Below are positions 2,860 to 21,738 of a stretch of 64,000 nt of DNA, piece after piece. The DNA comes from Chitinophagales bacterium (GTDB lineage: Bacteria; Bacteroidota; Bacteroidia; Chitinophagales; CAIOSU01). The position numbers and the translations under genes were made by a program. Each line of letters starts with the position of its first letter. Positions within the stretch are counted from its first letter, which is position 1. Under the pieces are notes generated by a model. It was not told where the DNA came from, did not search any database, and was given only the letters and a program-made list of their open reading frames with translations. The stretch spans positions 186,001-250,000 of the forward strand of contig JBBDNB010000039.1 of NCBI GenBank assembly GCA_040877935.1, read 5' to 3'.

Positions 2860-4037
2860 GCAATGATTTTGCCATTAAAGTTGAAAATGTTTCTAAAGTA
2901 TTTTCTGTAAGCAACACAGAGGATGCTGAAATGGGAAACGGTCAGGAATTGTGGGCGCTAAAGAATTTGTCCTTTGAGATCAAAAAGGGAGAAAGTGTAG
3001 GTATAATAGGCCCCAATGGAAGCGGAAAAAGTACATTGTTGAAAATCCTGGCGAATGTAACCTATCCAAGTACAGGGCAAGTTCGAATAAATGGCCGACT
3101 TGCAAGTATATTGGATATAGGAGCGGGTTTTCACCCGGAACTGAGCGGCAGGGAAAATATTTACCTAAACGGTCAGATTCTCGGGTTTAGCAAAAGGGAA
3201 ATAAGACAGAAATTTGACCAAATTGTTGAATTCAGCGGAATTGAAAGATTTATTGCCGAACCGGTAAAGAAATATTCCAATGGCATGTATCTGCGCCTGG
3301 CATTCAGCATTATGGCCCACCTGGATTTTGACATTTACCTGTTTGATGAGGTATTGTCGGTAGGTGATGCCGAATTCAGAAATAAGATAAAAAAGAAAAC
3401 GGAATCAATTATTGACAGTGAAAAGACCATTCTGTATGTAACACATAACCTGAACGACATTGTGGAAGACTATACCAAAGGAATTATTCTTAGAAAAGGT
3501 GAGATAGAATTCATGGGGAACAATAATGCAGCAGTAAAAAAATATATGAATGACCTTTATGCTCCAGAACAATCTGAAAAAGAAATAAAATTTGATGATG
3601 TACCGGAGGATTATAAAGTTAAGATCACCGGTGTGGAAATTTCTCCAAAGGAAAAAATTTATACAAGCTCAGCTATAAATATCGAACTGGACATAGAAAA
3701 AGCAGATAACATTAAAGAAGATGTAGTATTTGGAATAGTTTTGTATGATTCATTGGGAAATCCTGTTTTTACTGCCATGTCAAATTTCGCTGAAAATCAG
3801 GTGAAATTTGAGCTGGAAAAAGGACAGCACAAAATTTCATGTGAAATACCGGCTAATTTTCTTTCATCTGGTACCTTTGTAATTGATCTTTATTTTGCCT
3901 GTCCTGAATCGAAAAGCAAACTTGTTAGAAAAAAACGGGCCATGGTCTTTCAGGTAGAAGAAGAACCGGAGATATCAAATTTGTCGTATAGCATTGGTCC
4001 TTTAAGACCCAAGTTTAAATGGCATTTAAAGAATTAA
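2856..4037 (+). CDS. ABC exporter ATPase with C-terminal Wzt-type domain
   Basis: A 393-residue protein. Residues 1-240 are an ABC ATPase: Walker A GPNGSGKST, a signature region reading KYSNGMYLRLAF (the divergent form seen in Wzt, TagH and KpsT), Walker B IYLFDEVLSVGD and the H-loop VTHN. About 150 further residues form a beta-rich domain of the size and position of the carbohydrate-binding domain in O-antigen Wzt proteins, which recognises the modified end of the chain to be exported. That extension favours the O-antigen or glycoconjugate class. Which glycan it handles is not visible. Confidence 0.88.
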   Translation: MSNDFAIKVENVSKVFSVSNTEDAEMGNGQELWALKNLSFEIKKGESVGIIGPNGSGKSTLLKILANVTYPSTGQVRINGRLASILDIGAGFHPELSGRENIYLNGQILGFSKREIRQKFDQIVEFSGIERFIAEPVKKYSNGMYLRLAFSIMAHLDFDIYLFDEVLSVGDAEFRNKIKKKTESIIDSEKTILYVTHNLNDIVEDYTKGIILRKGEIEFMGNNNAAVKKYMNDLYAPEQSEKEIKFDDVPEDYKVKITGVEISPKEKIYTSSAINIELDIEKADNIKEDVVFGIVLYDSLGNPVFTAMSNFAENQVKFELEKGQHKISCEIPANFLSSGTFVIDLYFACPESKSKLVRKKRAMVFQVEEEPEISNLSYSIGPLRPKFKWHLKN

Positions 4038-13640: not shown

Positions 13641-15119
<1,479 letters not shown>

Positions 15120-16934: not shown

Positions 16935-17348
<414 letters not shown>

Positions 17349-17370: not shown

Positions 17371-17964
17371 TTATTTAGTAAGTTTAATAAGGTCGAAATA
17401 AAGCAATCTTGTTTTGAGGCTGTCCTCTGTTTGCAGGCTCAAATATTCTTTTTCCTCTTCTTCACTTTTAAAGATGTTTTTGAATCCATTGTTTTTGTAG
17501 AAGGTCAGAGGTATTTTCTCATTGTAAGAATCTACAATAATGAAACGGCAGCCGGTTTTGTTTTCCTCATCAATAAACCATGCCTTAAGGGAATCCATAA
17601 GTTCTTTGCCTATTCCATTTCGTTTAAATGCTTTATTCACGCCCAGTCTTCCAATCAAAACTGCGGGGTAGTTGTGAAATCTTTTGGGATTGCTAATAGG
17701 CCTGGAGATTTTATTCCGAGTGCTTTTTTGCAATGACATGGCTTTAATGCTGTCATTGGCAAGGGTAAAAGCGCAAACAATTTTTTTTGGGTCTGAATCG
17801 AAAGTAAAGCAGTAAGTTTTTCCAAATAGGTCTTTGGTATAGTAAATACAATCTTTACTAAAGAATTCATTTAAATCTTTGTGTCCACAATCGAAAGCAT
17901 CACATTCATCAAGTATGCTTTGATTTAGCAACCTAAGGGAGCAGTTGTTTGCTAAAAAACTCAA
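17371..17964 (-). CDS. GNAT acetyltransferase, probable toxin of a TA pair
   Basis: A 197-residue protein with the GNAT acetyl-CoA loop RLGVNKAFKRNGIGKEL at about 110-127 and YKNNGFKNI near the end, as in acetyltransferases. The N-terminal FDCGHKDLNEFF and the stretch VCAFTLANDSIK are typical of the TacT/AtaT-like toxin subfamily, which acetylates aminoacyl-tRNA. The start appears to be TTG at 17964, 9 bp after a small upstream gene, as expected for a toxin preceded by its antitoxin. It ends 22 bp from the second glpK terminus, facing it. Confidence 0.7.
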   Translation of the reverse strand: MSFLANNCSLRLLNQSILDECDAFDCGHKDLNEFFSKDCIYYTKDLFGKTYCFTFDSDPKKIVCAFTLANDSIKAMSLQKSTRNKISRPISNPKRFHNYPAVLIGRLGVNKAFKRNGIGKELMDSLKAWFIDEENKTGCRFIIVDSYNEKIPLTFYKNNGFKNIFKSEEEEKEYLSLQTEDSLKTRLLYFDLIKLTK

Positions 17965-17973
17965 AATTTAAAG

Positions 17974-18138
17974 CTATTTATTACGCTCAAACTTTTTCAG
18001 GATAATTTTTGCGGACTTTACCTGTTTAGAAAAATCCACTTTATCCCTTTCGTTCTTTGCGTTATTTTTTGCTTTTGCTATGAATCTTTTAGCTGCACTT
18101 TCTTTTAGAGTGGGAACGCTATTGATTGTAATGGCCAT
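17974..18138 (-). CDS. Small protein upstream of the GNAT gene, probable antitoxin
   Basis: 54 residues from ATG at 18138 (a TTG start at 18177 would add 13). It starts MAITINSVPTLKESAAKRFI and is strongly basic, with FSKQVKSAKIILKK near the end. It is shorter than the ribbon-helix-helix DUF1778 antitoxins that usually pair with GNAT toxins and I do not recognise a DNA-binding motif. Its position directly before the GNAT gene, same strand, is the main argument for an antitoxin role. Confidence 0.55.
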   Translation of the reverse strand: MAITINSVPTLKESAAKRFIAKAKNNAKNERDKVDFSKQVKSAKIILKKFERNK

Positions 18139-18340
18139 GTGTCGAGATGTTTTTTTCCGAATCGAGTCGTTATACAAATTTATAAAGATTGCTGTTTTAA
18201 ATCAAAAATTCAGAATATTGGAACAGAATGTTAATTGCTATTTCGCTGCAATTATCAAAGGTAAAAGCAACGCTTATAGTTCAGTGATTTTTTCGTATTT
18301 AACTTTGTATTCTGTTTTTGCTAATCTAAAACCAAAATGT

Positions 18341-18379
18341 AAAAGCTTGAAAGAAGCGTTGCGGAAGACGATGGCATAA
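18341..18379 (+). repeat. Third copy of the glpK 3' terminus (39 bp)
   Basis: Matches the last 39 bp of glpK with five mismatches by my count, including the stop position, and encodes the tail KEALRKTMA in place of KEAVRKTMA. One mismatch (GCGGAAG) is shared with the second copy rather than with the intact gene. It marks the far edge of the island, 66 bp before the cysteine leader peptide. Confidence 0.85.
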
Positions 18380-18404: not shown

Positions 18405-18435
18405 TTGCCCGCTAAAAAATAATGGCATATATTCA
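18405..18435 (+). promoter_or_regulatory. Candidate promoter of the cysteine operon
   Basis: TTG at 18405-18407 and TATATTCA at 18428-18435 are 20 bp apart, the spacing of Bacteroidota -33/-7 elements; the -7 box matches TAnnTTTG at the TA and two T positions. Transcription would start around 18440, a few bases before the leader peptide ATG. This is tentative. Confidence 0.35.
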
Positions 18436-18445
18436 CAACTTGAAA

Positions 18446-18535
18446 ATGAAAAGAAACGCATTCCATATTGAAAATTGTTGTTGCTGCTGTTGTAGTGCAT
18501 CCAATCGATGGAGTGCTGTTGCTTTTGCGTATTAG
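18446..18535 (+). CDS. Cysteine leader peptide (six consecutive Cys codons)
   Basis: A 29-codon frame from ATG at 18446 to TAG at 18533. It starts MKRNAFHIEN and then has six cysteine codons in a row (TGT TGT TGC TGC TGT TGT, 18476-18493), followed by 13 residues. It lies 76 bp before cysM, the first gene of a cysteine-biosynthesis operon, and is followed by alternative hairpins ending in a terminator. This is the architecture of an amino-acid leader peptide: ribosome stalling at the Cys run would report low charged tRNA-Cys. It is too short to be a stable enzyme. Confidence 0.8.
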   Translation: MKRNAFHIENCCCCCCSASNRWSAVAFAY

Positions 18536-18587
18536 TAAAGTTTAACAGGAAATATACAGCCCCATCGATCATTCGTTGGGGCTTTTT
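18497..18587 (+). terminator. Cysteine attenuator: protector, antiterminator and terminator hairpins
   Basis: Three mutually exclusive pairings can be drawn. Protector: 18497-18503 with 18509-18516 (one bulged G). Antiterminator: ATCGATGG (18504-18511) with CCATCGAT (18562-18569), 8 bp. Terminator: AGCCCCA (18558-18564) with TGGGGCT (18577-18583), extended by CGA/TCG, followed by five T. Stalling at the Cys codons (18476-18493) would open the protector, free 18504-18511 and block the terminator; full translation would let the terminator form. The terminator ends 24 bp before cysM. Confidence 0.75.
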
Positions 18588-18610
18588 GTTTATACTGGGT
18601 TAAATATCAG

Positions 18611-19549
18611 ATGGAAATGATAGCTGAATTAAAAAACAAGACATTGCAAGAAAAGATTAAAAAAATGGAAGCCTTCATTGGCAACACGCCTTTGTTTCCA
18701 ATTATTGGCCTACACAAAAATGAAAAAGTAAAAATCTTCGCCAAGCTCGAATGGCAGCAATGGGGCAATAGCGTAAAAGCGCGTCCGGCATTCAATATTA
18801 TCAAGCAGGCCATTTTAAATGGAGATCTGTCAGAGGGCAAACATTTATTGGATGCCAGCAGTGGCAATACCGGAGTGGCTTATGCTGGAGTTGCAGCGGC
18901 TTTAGGCATTCCCTTCACCTTATGTATTCCCGAAAATGCCTCCAGTACAAAAATTGCTGCGCTAAAGGCTTTTGGGGCCAATTTGATATTTACCTCTAAA
19001 TACGATTTAACGGATGGCGCCCAGGAAAAAGCTGTGGAATTGCAGGAAGCAGAGCCCGATAAGTACTTTTATGCCGATCAATATGCCAATGACAACAATT
19101 GGAAGGCACACTATAAATCAACAGGGCCTGAAATTTACAATCAAACAAAACAGGCAGTTACGCATTTTATAGCCGGGCTCGGCACAACGGGTACATTTAC
19201 CGGAACTGCTCGGGCTTTAAAGGATTTTGACAAAAACATAAAAGTCATTGCCCTGCATCCAGATTCTGCGCTGCATGGCCTGGAGGGTTGGAAGGATTTG
19301 GAAACGGCAAAAGTGCCTAAATTTTATGACCCTGAATTGGCCGATGAAAACAGAGTAGTTTCTACGGAAACGGCTTATAAATATGTGAAAATTGCAGGTG
19401 AAAAATTGGGCTTGATGCTGAGCCCTTCTTCTGCGGCTAATTTGTCAGGCGCATTGCAATTGGCAGACGAATTGGAAGAAGGTACGGTGGTGACTGTTTT
19501 CCCCGATCACGGGAGCAATTACCCCGAAGTGATGAAAGAAATTTTTTAA
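18611..19549 (+). CDS. cysM: Cysteine synthase-family PLP enzyme (CysM-like)
   Basis: A 312-residue fold-type II PLP enzyme. Lys 56 in NSVKARPAF should hold PLP; ASSGNTGVA binds the substrate carboxylate; GLGTTGTFTGTAR is the phosphate loop; SPSSAAN lies near the C terminus. With a JAMM protease, a ubiquitin-like carrier and an E1-like enzyme downstream, it fits CysM of the Mycobacterium CysO pathway, which adds a protein thiocarboxylate to an activated serine (O-phosphoserine there) instead of using free sulfide. ATG at 18611 or 18617. Likely controlled by the attenuator just upstream. Confidence 0.85.
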   Translation: MEMIAELKNKTLQEKIKKMEAFIGNTPLFPIIGLHKNEKVKIFAKLEWQQWGNSVKARPAFNIIKQAILNGDLSEGKHLLDASSGNTGVAYAGVAAALGIPFTLCIPENASSTKIAALKAFGANLIFTSKYDLTDGAQEKAVELQEAEPDKYFYADQYANDNNWKAHYKSTGPEIYNQTKQAVTHFIAGLGTTGTFTGTARALKDFDKNIKVIALHPDSALHGLEGWKDLETAKVPKFYDPELADENRVVSTETAYKYVKIAGEKLGLMLSPSSAANLSGALQLADELEEGTVVTVFPDHGSNYPEVMKEIF

Positions 19550-19701: not shown

Positions 19702-20151
19702 ATGAAAGTAATATTATCAGGAGAAGCAAAAGCCACAATGGTAGAGGATGCATTGAGCACCTACCCACACGAATGCTGTGGTTTTTTCTACGGAAATGAA
19801 AAAGACAATCGCGTAATCACCAAGTCTATTCCGGTGAATAACTCCAAGGAAGAAAACCGGGAGCGCAGGTTTGAGATTTCCGCCAAGGACTACATCAAAG
19901 CCGAGGAATATGCCGATGAAAACAATTTATTGCTATTGGGTGTCTATCATTCACATCCCGATCATCCGGCCATTCCATCGGAGCACGATTTGAGGCAGGC
20001 GGTTCCCTATTTTTCCTATATCATTATATCGGTGAAAAAAGGAAAACTGGCGAATATTCTGTCCTGGAGGCTGAATGATGAAGCGCGATTTGAAGAGGAA
20101 AATTTAGAAATCAAAAAAGAAGAAATAAACTTAGATCAATTTTTAAACTAA
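19702..20151 (+). CDS. JAMM/MPN metalloprotease (Mec-like)
   Basis: A 149-residue MPN-domain protein with the complete JAMM zinc site: Glu 24 (HECCG) and His 83, His 85, Ser 93 and Asp 96 in HSHPDHPAIPSEHD, which fits HxHx7SxxD. In the CysO pathway the homologue Mec+ releases cysteine from the CysO-Cys adduct. Here the carrier encoded next ends in Gly-Gly-Lys-Asn, so this protease may also trim that tail to expose Gly-Gly. The 152-bp gap to cysM contains part of a dispersed repeat and no gene. Confidence 0.85.
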   Translation: MKVILSGEAKATMVEDALSTYPHECCGFFYGNEKDNRVITKSIPVNNSKEENRERRFEISAKDYIKAEEYADENNLLLLGVYHSHPDHPAIPSEHDLRQAVPYFSYIIISVKKGKLANILSWRLNDEARFEEENLEIKKEEINLDQFLN

Positions 20152-20277: not shown

Positions 20278-20556
20278 ATGGCAAAAATTACGATTCCCAC
20301 TCCTTTGAGAAAATTTACCAATCAGGAGAAAACTTTTGAAAGCAATGCCGACAATGTAGATGCGGCCATTAAGGAACTGGTGGAAACCTATCCCGATATC
20401 AAAGGCCAATTGCTGGATGCGGAAGGCAATCTCCGCTCCTTTATTAAAGTATTTGTGGGCGATGAGGACATCAAGGATTTGGAACAGGGCAATACGGCTT
20501 TGAAAAGTGATACAACCGTAAGCATTGTTCCGGCCATTGCAGGAGGAAAAAACTAA
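20278..20556 (+). CDS. ThiS/MoaD-family sulfur carrier (CysO-like)
   Basis: A 92-residue beta-grasp protein. The N terminus reads ITIPTPLRKFTNQEK, as in CysO/MoaD proteins, and the C terminus ends IAGGKN. The carrier group is normally a C-terminal Gly-Gly that is adenylated and converted to thiocarboxylate; here two more residues follow, so proteolytic maturation by the neighbouring JAMM enzyme is likely. It supplies sulfur to CysM. It ends 6 bp before the E1-like gene. Confidence 0.85.
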   Translation: MAKITIPTPLRKFTNQEKTFESNADNVDAAIKELVETYPDIKGQLLDAEGNLRSFIKVFVGDEDIKDLEQGNTALKSDTTVSIVPAIAGGKN

Positions 20557-20562
20557 AATACA

Positions 20563-21738
20563 ATGTCAGAAAACAATCTATTTTCAAAAGCAGAGCTGGA
20601 AAGGTATAGCCGCCACTTGATCATCCCCGAATTCAATATCGAGGGACAGAAAAAACTGAAAAAGGCCAAGGTACTGATAGTGGGTACCGGTGGACTGGGC
20701 GCTCCTTTGTTGCAGTATTTAACGGCAGCCGGAGTAGGCACCATTGGCGTGGTAGATTTTGATGTGGTGGAAGACAGCAATTTGCAACGACAGGTTTTGT
20801 TCACTACCGATGATGTAGGCAAACCCAAAACAGAAGCGGCAGTAGCGCGCATGAAAGGCCTGAATCCGCATGTGAATTTCAAGATTTACAATACCCAATT
20901 GAACTCCTCCAATGCGCTGGAAATCATAAAGGATTACGATATTGTGGCCGATGGAACGGACAATTTCCCGACCCGCTATTTGGTAAATGATGCCTGTGTA
21001 TTGCTGGGCAAACCCAATGTATATGCATCTATTTTCCGCTTTGATGGGCAATTGACGGTTTTCAATTATCAGTTTGGCGATGGACAAACAGGGCCGAATT
21101 ACCGCGATTTGTATCCCGAGCCACCGCCCCCCGGATTGGTGCCAAGCTGTGCCGAAGGAGGTGTGATTGGCGTATTGCCGGGCATACTCGGTAGTTTGCA
21201 GGCCAATGAAGTGATAAAAGTAATCACAGGTGTGGGCGATCCACTTATTGGTAGAATGTTTAGTTTCGATGCGCTGGGTTTTGAGACCAGAATTTTCAAG
21301 TTCAAGAAAGACCCGAAAAACCCAATCAGCGGAGAAAACCCCACGCTTGACCATTTGATCGATTATGAACAATTTTGTGGCATTCCCCAACAGGAATCTG
21401 AAAATAAAAAACAAGAAAAAGTGAAAGAACTAACAGTAAAAGAACTCAAGGAATTACAGGACAGCAAAGAAGATTTTCAATTGATTGATGTCCGTGAAGA
21501 TTTTGAATACGAAATTGCCAATTTGAAAGGCGAACTGATTCCGCTCAACAATATTTTGGACGAGGCAGATAAAATTGCCAAAGACAAAAAAGTGGTGGTG
21601 CATTGCCGTAGCGGAGCGAGAAGTGCCAATGCCATCCAGGCTTTAGAACAAAAATTCGGTTATGACAATTTATACAATCTCAAGGGCGGTATTCTCGCTT
21701 ATGCAGATGAGATTGACAATAGTCTGGCGAAATATTAA
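20563..21738 (+). CDS. MoeZ-like E1 adenylyltransferase with rhodanese domain
   Basis: A 391-residue two-domain protein. Residues 1-255 are a ThiF/MoeB-type E1 (GTGGLGAPLLQYL, DGTDNFPTRYLVND, PSCAEGGVIG), which adenylates the Gly-Gly end of the carrier. From about 290 a rhodanese domain has its active Cys in HCRSGARSAN and would deliver sulfur. The usual zinc CxxC pairs of MoeB are missing: the CYRC position reads NYRD and the second pair is absent. It completes the cysM-JAMM-carrier-E1 set and is followed by a palindrome and a terminator. Confidence 0.88.
   Translation: MSENNLFSKAELERYSRHLIIPEFNIEGQKKLKKAKVLIVGTGGLGAPLLQYLTAAGVGTIGVVDFDVVEDSNLQRQVLFTTDDVGKPKTEAAVARMKGLNPHVNFKIYNTQLNSSNALEIIKDYDIVADGTDNFPTRYLVNDACVLLGKPNVYASIFRFDGQLTVFNYQFGDGQTGPNYRDLYPEPPPPGLVPSCAEGGVIGVLPGILGSLQANEVIKVITGVGDPLIGRMFSFDALGFETRIFKFKKDPKNPISGENPTLDHLIDYEQFCGIPQQESENKKQEKVKELTVKELKELQDSKEDFQLIDVREDFEYEIANLKGELIPLNNILDEADKIAKDKKVVVHCRSGARSANAIQALEQKFGYDNLYNLKGGILAYADEIDNSLAKY

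Follow-up and report, generated by a model that had tools for sequence, protein, structure and literature searches.

The cysM-like cysteine synthase gene in the window, by which we mean the whole 64,000-nucleotide stretch of DNA analysed here, is preceded by a short open reading frame carrying six Cys codons in a row, raising the question of whether this leader regulates the genes behind it and, if so, what it senses. We propose that it acts by cysteine-sensing, charged-tRNA-Cys-dependent, ribosome-mediated transcription attenuation, a reading to which we assign a probability of roughly 0.88. The anatomy of the element, its conservation, the matched pairing of its arms and its association with cysteine and sulfur genes were established here, whereas the transcription start, translation of the leader, ribosome stalling and the response to cysteine are inferred in the absence of expression, transcription-start or ribosome data.

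The leader ORF spans positions 18446–18535 of the forward strand, with an ATG at 18446 and a TAG at 18533–18535, and encodes the 29-codon peptide MKRNAFHIENCCCCCCSASNRWSAVAFAY. Its putative sensor is an uninterrupted run of six Cys codons (TGT TGT TGC TGC TGT TGT) at 18476–18493. Both the frame and the run had been described in the initial annotation and were confirmed from the sequence, as was the placement of the leader directly upstream of cysM, the ATG of which (18611) lies 75 nt past the leader stop. The antiterminator proposed there also proved to be an exact 8-bp match, pairing 18504–18511 (ATCGATGG) with 18562–18569 (CCATCGAT). These are the cores of longer arms, termed here segment 2 (18504–18519) and segment 3 (18555–18569), with the pairing extending to about 18504–18519:18555–18569 at a duplex energy of −19.3 kcal/mol (RNAduplex; −21.7 kcal/mol with longer flanks), compared to −8.6 ± 2.4 kcal/mol for dinucleotide shuffles (p = 0.007). 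Segment 3 overlaps the 5′ arm of an intrinsic terminator at 18558–18587, rendering the two pairings mutually exclusive as originally claimed. The terminator consists of the stem AGCCCCA (18558–18564):TGGGGCT (18577–18583), an inner helix, with which it reaches −16.6 kcal/mol, and a U-tract at 18583–18587; the annotated stem thus stands, although the first of the five T residues assigned to its tail already lies inside it. The protector, in contrast, had to be relocated: the pairing originally suggested (18497–18503:18509–18516) amounts to no more than a bulged local hairpin (−7.0), retained only as a weaker alternative, whereas a 9-bp helix of −15.5 kcal/mol can form between segment 1 (18458–18466, leader codons 5–7; GCATTCCAT) and 18508–18516. 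Taken as a whole, the region 18494–18592 folds better than 200 out of 200 shuffles (z = −3.65), and comparison of the element with the Rfam covariance models for T-box, riboswitch and leader families yielded only sub-threshold chance matches.

The start of cysM lies about 24 nt past the U-tract, outside the attenuator structures. The gene (18611–19549) encodes a PF00291 protein, for which the best NCBIfam match was TIGR01138 cysM (1.2e-80, below the cutoff of that model). It is followed on the same strand by genes for a Mec-like JAMM/Prok-JAB protease (19702–20151; PF14464, 1.2e-23), probably part of the cysM operon, a CysO-like sulfur carrier of the ThiS/MoaD type (20278–20556; PF02597, 6e-10) and a MoeZ-like ThiF adenylyltransferase with a rhodanese domain (20563–21738; PF00899, PF00581). 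This cysM–JAMM–CysO–MoeZ arrangement is a CysO-type cysteine operon.

Conservation of the module was assessed at cysM loci of relatives, where an intrinsic terminator was required of every module counted. A poly-Cys leader with terminator was present at all 28 loci of the same order with enough upstream sequence, five of them tandem, and at 22 of the 28 named Bacteroidota loci (seven tandem), the carriers including Flexithrix, Reichenbachiella, Agaribacillus and an uncultured Microscilla. Outside the phylum, five out of six Neomarinimicrobiota loci carried the module, and all 17 cysM-like loci in the remaining phyla lacked it. Within the window's own family it was found in all five genomes having a cysM of the window type; the remaining four carry it some 1 kb ahead of cysM or, at the locus inspected (L011), before a peroxiredoxin gene leading into cysM. 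The check that the initial annotation had proposed, namely a search of Bacteroidota for short poly-Cys ORFs with conserved pairing before cysM operons, was therefore met by these loci together with the matched pairing described below, including its repetition on held-out modules.

We also searched at the DNA level with a strict pattern of four Cys codons, a gap and a terminator, which matched in 25 of the 199 order genomes and in 19 of 396 from a phylum sample; reversing the pattern gave zero matches in both sets. Searching the phylum for nothing more than six Cys codons proved uninformative on account of repeats and coding sequence. The module candidate L147 (MECCCFC...), L098 and the pattern matches L131 and L166–L168 were judged spurious, owing to an overlapping frame, other contexts or coding sequence. 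The longest run encountered comprises ten consecutive Cys codons, in a leader before sulfite reductase at locus L128 (1501 region). The Neomarinimicrobiota leaders (L068, L069, L071, L072 and L076) form a distinct subtype, in which a short Cys run is followed by a conserved tail (CCC..GGGELPA-like) with a GGAGGAGG segment and the antiterminator matching is weaker.

Since the terminator pairing had served as a selection criterion, it provides no independent evidence, in contrast to the antiterminator pairing, which was not selected for. We measured the latter as the best duplex of the stretch following the Cys run with the terminator 5′ arm plus loop, comparing the modules' own pairs with pairs swapped between modules. 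For 63 modules, own pairs averaged −15.0 and swapped pairs −10.4 (z = −14.1). The same preference was seen for 33 held-out modules found later by the DNA pattern (z = −9.8; 0/50000) and for a non-redundant set of 72 modules (z = −15.7; 0/20000 permutations), with 97% of modules pairing better than their own median swap. The matching persisted after removal of row and column means and of GC-rich modules as a correction for composition, and the control pairing of segment 2 with the terminator 3′ arm (segment 4) showed no matching (z = −0.93). Judged by this comparison, the antiterminator is evolutionarily maintained and mutually exclusive with the terminator. The protector pairing was significant across the set (z = −4.45) but only weakly conserved, with 61% of modules beating their median swap, and is therefore treated as optional.

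The promoter evidence distinguishes single or first modules from second modules of tandems. In the window, a consensus scan returned candidate Bacteroidota-type elements on the forward strand, a −33 element TTG (18405–18407) located 20 nt before a −7 element TATATTCA (18428–18435), which would place the start of transcription at about 18440–18443, just 5′ of the leader ATG. For the window alone this evidence is weak, as its −7 element matches the consensus TAnnTTTG at only 4 of 6 positions. An exact match no more than 60 nt before the leader was seen in 22 of 50 modules that stand alone or come first in a tandem, compared to 3.5% in shuffles. None of the 13 second modules of tandems had an exact TAnnTTTG within that distance. 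With the element preceding first but never second modules, tandems would seem to be read as a single transcript that meets two checkpoints in succession.

The region upstream of the attenuator contains further features. The 3′ end of the glycerol kinase gene (13647–15119) is duplicated about 2.2 kb downstream, with a 300-nt copy (14720–15019 versus 16949–17248) of 94% identity, and a third short piece (18341–18378; compare 15081–15118 and 17310–17347) lies just upstream of the attenuator promoter. On the minus strand, 17371–17964 encodes what appears by eye to be a GNAT-like acetyltransferase, preceded by a short ORF (17974–18177, minus strand), a layout like that of a GNAT toxin–antitoxin pair; the larger protein had no NCBIfam match.

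The genes behind the modules are mostly cysteine or sulfur genes. Five consecutive Cys codons occur at nine places in the 4.0-Mb source genome, so poly-Cys by itself is not rare; a short poly-Cys ORF followed by a terminator was found there only before cysM and, as two modules in tandem, before a sulfite reductase operon. This tandem, located outside the window (L091; G000:C2, 4012–4341), comprises two leaders, which begin at 4012 and 4165 and each have their own terminator, and precedes genes for sulfite reductase, uroporphyrinogen-III methyltransferase, a siroheme synthase domain protein and PAPS reductase. Elsewhere, the downstream genes comprise cysM, sulfite reductase, cysD, cysK, metY–metX, peroxiredoxin, RimK-like ATP-grasp and DUF4395 genes, and also taurine-type transporter genes. 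At two loci (L123, L133) the gene immediately after the module encodes a RimK-like ATP-grasp ligase that has no Pfam match and is possibly a thiol or cysteine-conjugate ligase. In Chlorobium, an assignment based on the FMO protein, modules precede metY, taurine/SaoA-type ABC transporters, a 2-hydroxyacyl-CoA dehydratase system, radical SAM enzymes and porin-like proteins (L187, L188 and L153–L161 for the porin-like, taurine-type, radical SAM and dehydratase genes), suggesting a cysteine-controlled route for taking up organosulfur compounds.

To delineate what the leader reads, we compared 95 modules, the Cys runs of which range from 3 to 10 codons (351 TGT, 127 TGC). Cys itself is retained even though either of its codons, TGT or TGC, may be used, the other residues vary, and pairing of the Cys run with the antiterminator arm is no stronger than expected by chance (z = −1.3), pointing, as far as comparison of sequences allows, to a sensor that acts by codon reading and not through RNA structure or a conserved peptide. 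The antiterminator arm starts at a median of 27 nt (MAD 2) past the first Cys codon, 28 nt in the window, whereas its distances from the start and stop codons are loose (MAD 11 and 10, respectively), as expected if the position relative to a Cys-stalled ribosome matters. With the first Cys codon in its A site, a ribosome extends roughly 12–15 nt further, so that the arm would be just free at the stall and covered once the ribosome moves on. As swapped pairings give a similar median, we dropped the arm position as independent proof of the pairing; it is partly a property of the G-rich segment and supports the leader geometry only.

Conservation of Cys is also what would be expected if the nascent peptide were itself the sensor, its thiols binding metal or becoming oxidised and the ribosome stalling in consequence, in which case the leader would report on redox or metal status and not on tRNA-Cys charging. 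The peroxiredoxin genes downstream in some family members and in one other genome would suit such a role. We nevertheless consider it unlikely, given that the length of the run varies from 3 to 10 with unconserved flanking residues, that most of the controlled genes make cysteine or supply its sulfur, and that stalling at the codon level has the simpler precedent.

Under ribosome-mediated transcription attenuation, transcription would start just 5′ of the leader ORF with a ribosome trailing the polymerase. If charged Cys-tRNA is available, the ribosome would pass the six Cys codons and cover 18504–18519, or this arm would be held by the leader codons 18458–18466, and the terminator at 18558–18587 would form, stopping transcription before cysM. 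If charged tRNA-Cys is scarce, the ribosome would stall within the Cys run, covering 18458–18466 and ending just short of segment 2, which would then be free to pair with the terminator 5′ arm, preventing termination and allowing transcription of cysM–mec–cysO–moeZ. Without a ribosome, segment 2 would remain sequestered, leading again to termination. Predicted folds of the window element agree in part: with the RNA masked up to 18489, the antiterminator forms before the terminator 3′ arm is made, and in the absence of a ribosome 18458–18466 pairs with 18508–18516, sequestering the antiterminator arm. The leader stop, however, lies about 22 nt past the core of segment 2, so that a ribosome waiting there leaves most of the arm uncovered, and the equilibrium fold before synthesis of the 3′ arm still predicts the antiterminator. 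In the window module, termination must hence be secured either by timing or by the protector helix. By the same mechanism, single or tandem modules may control the wider sulfur-assimilation regulon of the source organism and related bacteria.

Whether control is exerted on transcription at all could be questioned in view of the mycobacterial poly-Cys uORFs, the class of elements with which a purely translational attenuation of cysM would align. Canestrari et al. are said to have treated these uORFs in 2020, and they are reportedly leaderless and cited as translational attenuation. For mycobacterial cys operons, poly-Cys leader peptides without conserved terminators have been predicted (PMC1262725), and later work on them is cited as translation attenuation in a further source (PMC13236596). 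The window element shares with them a short ORF with a Cys run before cysteine or sulfur operons, but departs from this translational type by having an intrinsic terminator together with a matched antiterminator. All 28 same-order cysM loci meet the terminator requirement, the antiterminator is matched to the terminator 5′ arm, and the cysM start lies beyond the structures, leaving translational control very improbable. Even less credit is due to a genuine gene for a small Cys-rich protein with an ordinary terminator of its own and a separate promoter for cysM: the ORF is open and a terminator does follow it, but only Cys is conserved among products of 9–41 aa, and the matching of the antiterminator would be left without a role. 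A chance ORF with chance pairings, for all that short ORFs and terminators are common and five Cys codons in a row recur at nine places in the source genome, is already refuted at the family level by the 28/28 conservation, by pairing matched in discovery and held-out sets and by the empty backward-pattern control.

Ribosome-mediated transcription attenuators of the trp/his/leu type are known from Proteobacteria and have also been predicted for ilvB in Actinobacteria. Ribosome-mediated transcription attenuation at cysM would share with them a short ORF containing a series of regulatory codons, an antiterminator and a terminator that exclude each other and a biosynthetic operon for the amino acid concerned, and in the window also a predicted protector helix. 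It differs in using Cys, in its Bacteroidota host, in a leader that apparently starts almost at the transcript 5′ end, in the frequent tandem arrangement and in serving as one device for a whole sulfur regulon. The closest prior art, besides the mycobacterial uORFs, is the uORFC-8-2 motif before cysS in Rhodobacterales, a predicted cysteine-specific transcription attenuator with an intrinsic terminator (PMC8632094). This alphaproteobacterial motif has two Cys codons inside a stem and precedes cysteinyl-tRNA synthetase, whereas the present modules have 3–10 Cys codons, whose pairing with the antiterminator arm does not exceed chance, and precede cysteine or sulfur genes; the window element accordingly falls outside that motif, with cysM and not cysS downstream. 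For Flavobacterium psychrophilum, which shares the phylum and leader peptides before amino-acid operons, leader-peptide attenuation is mentioned, though the main text does not name cysteine among the cases (PMC9723704). In the searchable literature, with subscription papers and supplements outside its scope, we found neither a cysteine attenuator in Bacteroidota nor a description of cysteine sensing in these bacteria, and a limited literature search returned no precedent for leader-peptide attenuators in series. The modules thus look like a widespread, previously unreported cysteine-sensing system, its response to cysteine being inferred, and within ribosome-mediated attenuation the sensor residue for this lineage, the taxa, the regulon and the tandem use appear to be new.

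The finding provides a testable mechanism of cysteine sensing and a regulon identifiable from sequence, with Flexithrix dorotheae, Reichenbachiella agariperforans and Agaribacillus aureus as named isolates in which it could be tested. The RimK-like ATP-grasp and DUF4395 proteins and the Chlorobium porins and transporters, the role of which is unclear, are marked by their modules as probably tied to sulfur nutrition. More broadly, and only as a tentative proposal to which we give slightly less than even odds, Bacteroidota, Chlorobium and Neomarinimicrobiota may run their sulfur-assimilation regulon largely via one reusable cysteine-tRNA attenuator that takes the place of protein regulators of the CysB or CymR kind, often with two in series, which would yield a steeper or graded response.
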